Positions 57,437 to 59,122 of a DNA stretch of 64,000 nucleotides are shown here, in pieces. This DNA comes from an uncultured Muribaculaceae bacterium (lineage in GTDB: Bacteria; Bacteroidota; Bacteroidia; Bacteroidales; Muribaculaceae), in contig CALUMI010000010.1 in the NCBI GenBank assembly GCA_944321725.1, positions 1-64,000 on the forward strand, written 5' to 3'. Numbering within the stretch: position 1 is the stretch's first letter; every line of letters begins with the position of its first letter. Position numbers and translations under genes: made by a program. A model generated the notes under the pieces. It made no database searches, was not told the DNA's origin, and worked only from the letters and a program-made list of their open reading frames with translations.

Positions 57437-58002
57437 ATGAGCTATTTTGCCAAGCAACAGAAAAAAATGAAAGAACTTTCCCAAAAAGAAAGGACAAGGC
57501 GGGAAACTCTCGGCAAATTCTTTTATGATTTGGCAAAACTTGTTTTCGCGTCAATGGCATTAGTTGTGCATCTCACTAACCAAAATCGGTCATTAGACAC
57601 TTGACAGATCGCCATACGTACTGAATGTCCTCCCCTGTCACACAGCGGAGCGTAGTTATAGGGAGGTGTCCCAACGGGACGGAGGGGTTGCCAGATTCAC
57701 CGCTTGCGGTGAAAACAAACAGATAAAAACTGAATTTCACTGCTCCGCAGTGATTGGGCAATCCCCTCGACACTTCGCGCTACTCCCCCTATTTGCTCCG
57801 CATAGCTGCGCAAACAGAGGGAGACATCTGAATGGATTCAGCACACCTGTTCCTCGCTTTCAAACAAATATAGTATAGGCTAATGACCGATTTGGAATTA
57901 ATAATTAATGACCCACAATTCAAACAAGTCATACTATTACTAACAGGACTATGCTTTACAACCCTATTGGCATATATTGGATATAACATATTAAAACGTT
58001 AG
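57437..58002 (+). pseudogene. Two-helix small membrane protein, split by an insertion
   Basis: Two pieces of one gene flank a MITE-like element. The left piece (57437-57604, 55 codons) reads as a charged start, then GKFFYDLAKLVFASMALVV, the first half of a helix-rich small membrane protein of the DUF6722-like kind. The right piece (57883-58002, 39 codons) gives a second helix ending LAYIGYNILKR. Joined, they match the size (about 80 residues) of such proteins in Bacteroidales; the family name is from memory. The left piece now ends in a stop inside the element, so the original protein is lost, although each half could be translated separately. Confidence 0.65.
57580..57895. mobile_element. 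MITE-like element with inverted ends and several hairpins
   Basis: A 316-base element without a gene. The ends CCAAAATCGGTCATTAG (57580-57596) and CTAATGACCGATTTGG (57880-57895) are inverted repeats with one extra A. Inside are at least four hairpins, for example GTCCC-AAC-GGGAC (57669-57681), CACCGC-TT-GCGGTG, CACTGC-TCC-GCAGTG, and TTTGC/GCAAA, and a long-range pairing of GAGGGGTTGCC with GGCAATCCCCTC. Its GC-rich content differs from the AT-rich flanks. It interrupts a small membrane protein gene. Target-site duplication is not clear. Confidence 0.65.
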
Positions 58003-58006
58003 TATT

Positions 58007-58111
58007 ATGGGTTTTATGACTACATTCTTCACCGTAGGAATAATTATCGCTTTAGGCATTGCAATTTGGCTGAGGACCAAATCGGGCAAGAAATGGCTTG
58101 AAAACTTATAA
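58007..58111 (+). CDS. Small one-helix membrane protein (34 residues)
   Basis: A 34-residue reading frame starts 4 bases after the split gene and encodes one membrane helix (FFTVGIIIALGIAIWL) followed by a basic tail (RTKSGKKWLENL). Tiny proteins of this design sit beside DUF6722-like genes in Bacteroidales, as I remember, so it is probably real. Function unknown. Confidence 0.55.
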   Translation: MGFMTTFFTVGIIIALGIAIWLRTKSGKKWLENL

Positions 58112-58458: not shown

Positions 58459-58851
58459 CTATTCAAACTTACGATATTTCTCTATAAAGTAATCTACTGC
58501 AACAAGTAAATCATCCAAATTGTTTTTAACCACGTCAAAAACAATGTCACCATCAATATCAAAATACCCATGAGCTATATGGTTTCGAATTCCGATAACA
58601 TCCGCCCAAGGTATATCCGGACGTTCTATCAATAATTTTGATTGTGTAATATCATCTATCCGCTTAATTCCCTCGCCAATAGCCTCTATCAACATGCAAC
58701 TCGCAGCAAGAACCTTCATTCCATCAGATGAAACATAATAATCCTCAGAAGAACGTATATTCTTATTCCACTCAATCACTTGAACAATCGCTGCTCTAAT
58801 CTGTTGAAAAATAGAACACACACGACTATTTAATGACATAGATTCCGTCAT
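58459..58851 (-). CDS. hepT: HepT-like toxin (HEPN ribonuclease)
   Basis: A 130-residue helical protein of the DUF86/HepT family. The HEPN active-site motif R-x4-H-x-Y is intact (Arg89, His94, Tyr96, in RNHIAHGYF). It overlaps the antitoxin gene by 26 bases; an alternative start at 58839 would shorten the overlap. HEPN toxins of this type cleave RNA and are neutralised by the paired MntA nucleotidyltransferase, which AMPylates the tyrosine of the motif. The intact motif suggests a working toxin. Confidence 0.88.
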   Translation of the reverse strand: MTESMSLNSRVCSIFQQIRAAIVQVIEWNKNIRSSEDYYVSSDGMKVLAASCMLIEAIGEGIKRIDDITQSKLLIERPDIPWADVIGIRNHIAHGYFDIDGDIVFDVVKNNLDDLLVAVDYFIEKYRKFE

Positions 58852-59122
58852 TTTCTATTTCCTTTAACAAATAAGGATTAATATGCTTATGCAATCTCAC
58901 CACATCAACAGAACATTGAAGCAGTTTTTCCAAAAACCGTTTCAATGCAGATACCAAATATGCCTTGGGCTCCATATCCACACAAATATCAATGTCACTG
59001 TCCTCCCGATGTTCATCACGTGAAACCGATCCAAACAGCCTCAACGACTTAATTCCAAATCCGGATTTCAACTCATCCGTATGAGATGCAATAAGTGATA
59101 TATATTCTTCTTTCGTTCTCAT
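58826..59122 (-). CDS. mntA: MntA-like nucleotidyltransferase antitoxin
   Basis: A 98-residue minimal nucleotidyltransferase. The signature GS-x10-D-x-D is present: Gly31, Ser32 (LFGSVSR), then Asp43 and Asp45 (DSDIDICVD). Such proteins inactivate the partner HepT toxin by transferring AMP to it. It is the first gene of the pair, as is typical, and has its own strong promoter (59148-59179). The pair sits in the small accessory patch next to the MITE-like element and the RhuM remnant. Confidence 0.88.
   Translation of the reverse strand: MRTKEEYISLIASHTDELKSGFGIKSLRLFGSVSRDEHREDSDIDICVDMEPKAYLVSALKRFLEKLLQCSVDVVRLHKHINPYLLKEIENDGIYVIK

Follow-up and report, generated by a model that had tools for sequence, protein, structure and literature searches.

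A composite MITE carrying the gene-less ends of a DUF559 unit inside a DUF6722 gene of a Muribaculaceae bacterium

A small two-helix membrane-protein gene (DUF6722) of an uncultured Muribaculaceae bacterium is split by a 317-bp element at positions 57580-57896 of the window, the 64,000-nt stretch of DNA that we analysed, which is contig 10 of its own 2.5-Mb genome (G000). We propose, with a probability of roughly 0.8, that this insert is a composite non-autonomous element of two nested modules, an outer MITE and, inside it, the gene-less ends of a DUF559 unit, and that the whole composite moved into the DUF6722 gene. Taken alone, the window element is a new composite MITE; the DUF559-unit ends that it carries are more interesting than the MITE itself, and it is the DUF559-repeat system that merits further attention.

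The interrupted DUF6722 gene and the inserted element

The two gene halves lie on the + strand at 57437-57574 and 57902-58002. Using the joined halves as a query, we found an uninterrupted homologue (locus L082; G124:C43:5955-6197) in a relative, with 68% identity across all 82 residues. The 3' half was placed by its alignment to L082, and the 5' half, homologous to the same gene, matches Pfam DUF6722 (PF20482) only below the cut-off (E=2.6e-4; 21.6 vs 27 bits). Because the relative has one uninterrupted gene, we conclude that the window gene was split by an insertion. A preliminary description of this DNA had claimed that two halves of a small two-helix membrane protein were separated here, and had suggested finding a strain with an intact gene; L082 and the DUF6722 match of the 5' half bear out the claim, and L082 supplies the gene. 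The further claim of recent movement survives only in part: both halves are still open, but the flanking duplication matches at four of five positions and the rejoined halves are out of frame, so there has been some decay since insertion. The element itself stops the host frame at 57602-57604, and the window copy is not an in-frame insertion.

Directly behind the DUF6722 gene lies a second small membrane ORF (MGFMTTFFTVG...KKWLENL; 58008-58109, + strand). The same ORF stands behind the uninterrupted gene in L082 and, because the order is conserved there, we regard the two as a small cassette. A HepT-like/nucleotidyltransferase (MNT) toxin-antitoxin pair is encoded just downstream of the split gene (58459-59122, - strand).

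Perfect inverted arms of 14 nt lie at 57583-57596 and 57880-57893, and the family consensus end is 17 nt long, which sets the element at 57580-57896. From left to right, the left copy of the target duplication (ACTAA, 57575-57579) is followed by the left terminal inverted repeat (TIR; CCAAAATCGGTCATTAG, 57580-57596, +), assigned from the inverted arms and the family end consensus, and by a left spacer (57597-57625, +) common to three other copies (L034, L035 and L037). Block A (57626-57689, +), the left end of a DUF559 unit, consists of hairpin 1 (57629-57666), hairpin 2 (57668-57680) and a foot, GGAGGGGTT (57681-57689). Two internal hairpins come next, TTCACCGC-TT-GCGGTGAA (57696-57713, +) and TCACTGC-TCC-GCAGTGA (57737-57753, +), and then block B (57760-57826, -), the right end of a DUF559 unit, inverted with respect to block A. 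The right spacer (57827-57879, +) is common to L034, L045 and L047 and more diverged in L003 and L035; the right TIR, assigned like the left and reading CTAATGACCGATTTGGA on the + strand (57880-57896, -), and the right copy of the duplication (ATTAA, 57897-57901) complete the structure.

The element can be read as at least six stem-loops, and the minimum free energy of the folded strand is -114 kcal/mol, whereas its shuffles average -84 (z = -5.35; none of 100 shuffles as good). It contains no transposase ORF. An Rfam search of the element region at E up to 1 returned no match, and neither did a search of plasmid records. The preliminary description had recognised the inverted ends and the lack of a transposase correctly; its sizes, a 316-base element with 16-base ends, become 317 bp and a 17-nt family end, and its count of at least four stem-loops is exceeded.

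An outer MITE family and an interior from DUF559-unit ends

The outer module belongs to a MITE family spread across Muribaculaceae, with the TIR CCCAAATCGGTCATTAG and a 5-bp AT-rich target duplication. Dispersed copies of its end sequence, CCAAATCGGTCATTAGA, are found in 29 of the 297 genomes of the family, with up to 74 TIR sites in a single genome, and the reversed sequence, our control, gave 0 or 1 site per genome. Complete end pairs fall into size classes of about 43-68, 81, 144-188 and 317-335 bp. Among 34 distinct elements, the flanks match exactly over 5 bp in 16; the mean match over this length is 0.81, compared with 0.65 for permuted flanks (permuted maximum 0.735), and no signal appeared at any other length in these 34 elements. 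Target sites are AT-rich (TTAAA, ATAAA, TTTAA, TTCAA). Three marks of a MITE are present: TIRs common to the copies, a target duplication of fixed length (5 bp), and multiple copies at unrelated sites without a transposase gene.

The composite as a whole, with ends, spacers and hairpin blocks, recurs in complete or partial form elsewhere in G000 and in its congener G001, in at least five copies or half-copies, and therefore has multiplied as a unit. One copy (L034) is 78% identical over element positions 1-316 of 319; further complete or partial copies are L035, L037, L045, L003 and the shared site L002/L047. As a separate observation, elements of 170-188 bp are the most frequent form of the outer MITE (L203, L208, L220, L228, L230 and others), and several of them carry a different interior hairpin, CATAGCCCGCTATG; the interiors of the outer MITE look interchangeable.

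The interior of the window element is matched at twenty places in G000. Two inverted blocks flank a DUF559 gene at C35:10201-10830, the sole PF04480 match in this genome, and a second inverted pair, at C23, surrounds a DUF559 gene that is partly deleted. The right block of the window element, with the hairpin inside it, is 90% identical over 91 nt to DNA just downstream of the deleted gene (L004), where the TCACTGC-TCC-GCAGTGA hairpin also has its counterpart; a hairpin similar to TTCACCGC-TT-GCGGTGAA lies just downstream of the intact DUF559 gene in L032. Block A precedes block B in all three settings: the window element, the C23 unit and a Barnesiella genome (L095) in which the blocks surround an intact DUF559 gene. 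The window copy has the blocks but not the gene, and so lacks the arrangement of an intact gene between paired inverted blocks. An intact gene, an internal deletion and an ORF-less doublet in G000 thus form a series within one genome. By homology, the interior of the window element is traced to the left and right ends of a DUF559 unit that has lost its gene.

The preliminary description of a MITE-like, non-autonomous, hairpin-rich element inside a gene is upheld by these copies, by the uninterrupted homologue and by the family-wide 5-bp duplication. The searches that it proposed had mixed outcomes. The same ends and interior were found many times elsewhere; a target duplication of 5 bp was found across the family, although in the window itself ACTAA and ATTAA match at only four of five positions; and no transposase-bearing element with the outer ends was found in the 297 incomplete genomes or in viral contigs. 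Its comparison of the hairpins to dispersed repeat families was right in that copies exist elsewhere, but did not recognise them as the ends of DUF559 units. We also note a dispersed repeat of ~116 nt, present at G000:C35:10857-10972 and G000:C31:26674-26790 (90% identical between the two), which adjoins the DUF559 unit in G000 and occurs in other genomes of the family.

DUF559 genes and structured repeats beyond the window

To place the DUF559 unit in a wider setting, an alignment of DUF559 was scanned against the GTDB genome collection and the best 80 loci, from several phyla, were taken; 72 of these best 80 loci had both flanks, and 229 windows on the same contigs served as controls. An inverted repeat scoring 30 bits or more linked the two flanks at 29 of the 72 DUF559 loci and in one of the 229 controls, and a direct repeat did so at 29/72 loci and in 6/229 controls. 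The repeats follow a plan of a CCCCTCC...GGAGGGG hairpin, often a second hairpin, and then a GGGGTGG or GGAGGGG foot. This pattern occurs in 13 of 14 named Bacteroidota genomes, with up to 87 copies in one, and the reversed pattern in none. All 13 close block pairs of Hymenobacter siberiensis are oriented +/- (head-to-head), whereas 0.07 close pairs would be expected from random placement; the DUF559 gene lies inside a fourteenth pair, which is wider. Dispersed head-to-head pairs of short palindromes are a mark of REP/REPIN sequences, and the blocks bear it. Helix 2 covaries strongly, with 47 double-change cells against 13 in shuffled data for Hymenobacter and 37 against 11 for Muribaculaceae, establishing that structure is conserved; helix 1 and the foot hardly vary. 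DUF559 is present in nine of 14 block-bearing genomes and in 30 of the 297 Muribaculaceae-type genomes overall (p about 5e-7, without phylogenetic correction), and the block-bearing genomes of the 297-genome set represent just four genera.

In the 127-aa DUF559 protein (L032), residues E27, D56, E67, D69 and H73 are invariant. Its structure is predicted with confidence (mean pLDDT 87.5), and comparisons by profile and by fold both match it to 3hrl, a Neisseria protein, and to I-Bth0305I, a homing endonuclease. In catalytic residues and in fold, it qualifies as an EDxHD/Vsr-like nuclease. In a paper on a cyanobacterial genome, a DUF559-containing gene is classed with the EDxHD homing endonucleases (PMC9403480). 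A DUF559 protein of Caulobacter has been described as Vsr-like, with DUF559 proteins acting as Vsr-like repair enzymes in some relatives (PMC12907096).

DUF559 domains, together with the end repeats, are also found in frame inside conserved genes, including those for valyl-tRNA synthetase (ValRS; L049), a DegT aminotransferase (L052), AroA (L059), a sugar-nucleotide epimerase (L053, L054) and, as judged by eye, an HPPK-like protein (L115), and inside restriction-modification genes (HsdS, L139; others L143, L157, L164); in L060 the unit is in frame at the N-terminal end of RibD. Pfam host domains lie on both sides of the unit, with EPSP synthase, DegT and Polysacc_synt_C each in two stretches, and none of these eleven cases has an obvious splicing domain. 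L054 contains a repeat-only in-frame insert that is absent from L053. In-frame insertion is thus a property of these DUF559-bearing relatives and not of the window copy. In G000, the DUF559 unit lies beside rplU, and the rplU-side flank is present in G001 and G003 without the unit or the blocks; the junction cannot be aligned, so this site does not give the exact unit ends. In Hymenobacter, by contrast, the unit keeps a single site across species (loci L112, L125, L134, L136, L137, L142, L152 and L154), and many RAYTs likewise keep theirs. In some Hymenobacter species both unit ends have the same helix-2 sequence, which suggests concerted change of the ends.

Mechanism, rival explanations and known systems

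The outer module has 17-bp inverted ends and generates 5-bp AT-rich target duplications upon insertion; its movement presumably depends on a trans-acting transposase that recognises CCCAAATCGGTCATTAG, an enzyme that is inferred and was not found. By homology, the inner module consists of the two hairpin ends of a DUF559 unit, left and right, which remain as an ORF-less inverted doublet after loss of the gene. Most likely, DUF559 binds and then nicks or cuts at such structured ends, although its activity on the repeats is untested, and the break may then receive a copy of the unit, the enzyme acting in cis on the unit that encodes it and in trans on ORF-less pairs. The Vsr-like repair role of DUF559 proteins in some relatives (PMC12907096) speaks against this reading. 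The whole composite would have moved as one MITE into the DUF6722 gene, inactivating it. Recognition of the structured ends by DUF559, and the driving of copying, are inferences for which there is no experiment.

One could also read the segment not as an insertion but as a structured RNA, or a regulatory element, that is part of the gene pair itself; the strong folding of a region between two small ORFs lends this some support. Such an alternative has almost no chance of being correct, since the relative encodes one uninterrupted protein, the same element stands at unrelated places, a target duplication surrounds it and Rfam has no match for it; the uninterrupted homologue and the dispersed copies refute it. 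The hairpin blocks might instead be ordinary REP/REPIN sequences moved by a RAYT (TnpA-REP, Y1 HUH), as in Bacteroidetes subclass 2.6. Atypical structures that also have copies elsewhere flank the RAYTs of Bacteroidetes (PMC6006769), and one RAYT is encoded in G000. Nonetheless, we consider this improbable: the blocks flank DUF559 genes and not RAYT genes, and the repeats that flank RAYT genes in G000, G001 and G002 are others, of GCGACCTCTACGAGG and CCCCAAGC types. RAYT was rejected as owner of the GGGGAGGTG...CGGAGGGG blocks, to which the RAYT flanks of these three genomes have no significant match, and the blocks therefore lack the other mark of REP/REPIN sequences, a place beside the genome's RAYT gene. 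Four RAYT loci (L088, L089, L090 and L091) have flanking repeats of their own, of GCGACCTCTACGAGG and CCCCAAGC...GCTTGGGG types. As the RAYT genes have different repeats from the blocks, two nuclease-repeat systems coexist in the genus.

It is harder to dispose of a passive link, in which another agent moves the repeats and DUF559 genes merely travel as cargo or tend to lie next to them. The main weaknesses of our reading are those on which this alternative draws: no experiment connects enzyme and repeat, and no DUF559 gene was detected in G001, which has many blocks and is only 88% complete; the restriction of block-bearing genomes to four genera points the same way. We nevertheless regard a passive link as possible but doubtful, given that in several phyla, with other repeat sequences, DUF559 genes are again associated with repeats, that a DUF559 gene lies inside the doublet in both Hymenobacter and Muribaculaceae, and that no other gene is consistently seen inside doublets.

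An active role for DUF559 remains our preferred reading. Because flanking repeats exceed controls, doublets are inverted, one helix covaries, the repeats are not those of RAYT and units occur in frame, DUF559 looks like a second REP/RAYT-type system, unrelated to RAYT, in which its part as mover of the repeats is inferred. We lean modestly towards the broader view that a large class of structured repeats, present in several phyla and so far undescribed, has its dedicated mobility enzymes in the DUF559 nucleases, which are of homing/Vsr type instead of Y1 HUH, with in-frame insertion into conserved genes and ORF-less doublets carried as transposon cargo. In the open-access papers searched, which leave out subscription journals and preprints, we found no description of a DUF559-repeat system, no paper with DUF559 in its title or abstract, none joining repetitive extragenic palindromic sequences with Vsr, and none joining MITE, Muribaculaceae and inverted repeats. 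Many REP-like repeats have no known mobilising enzyme, and a 2013 survey of CGTC repeats closed on that question (PMC3733652). A small Vsr/homing-type nuclease between matching repeats across phyla, in frame in ValRS, AroA and DegT, is a concrete and testable candidate for one REP-like class, and would change the annotation of "DUF559 domain-containing protein" genes and the in-frame inserts adjoining them. The window element adds that the ends of DUF559 units can become the cargo of a MITE to which they are unrelated.

Among known systems, REP/REPIN sequences with RAYT resemble DUF559 units in their short dispersed hairpins, head-to-head pairs and one related gene between a pair; in DUF559 units, likewise, one hairpin and the foot are fixed and the second hairpin is conserved in structure alone. 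They differ in that the gene encodes an EDxHD/Vsr-like nuclease, not a Y1 HUH transposase, and in that the repeats are unlike those flanking RAYT in the same genus. The nuclease domain of the EDxHD homing endonuclease I-Bth0305I is homologous to that of DUF559, as judged from both sequence profile and predicted fold, but DUF559 is not in an intron or intein; it lies between hairpin repeats, with many target genes and ORF-less copies. Like DUF559 units, Rickettsia palindromic elements (RPE) form part of the open frame of protein genes that contain them, whereas the window insertion breaks the frame; to our knowledge, RPE have no nuclease gene. Two RPE types have been equated with CGTC-tagged REPs (PMC3733652), which are palindromic repeats found mostly as head-to-head dimers, as our blocks are, and for which no dedicated transposase is known; the blocks are longer, with two hairpins and GGAGGGG/GGGGTGG feet, and membership of the same family is not shown. 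Finally, the Bacteroidales MITEs BrickBuilt and MITE464/PgRS of Porphyromonas gingivalis (PMC4596501) are, like the window element, short, multi-copy and without a transposase, with inverted ends and a target duplication. The window element has another end sequence and a parent transposase that was not found, and its interior is a pair of DUF559-unit ends rather than tandem repeats.
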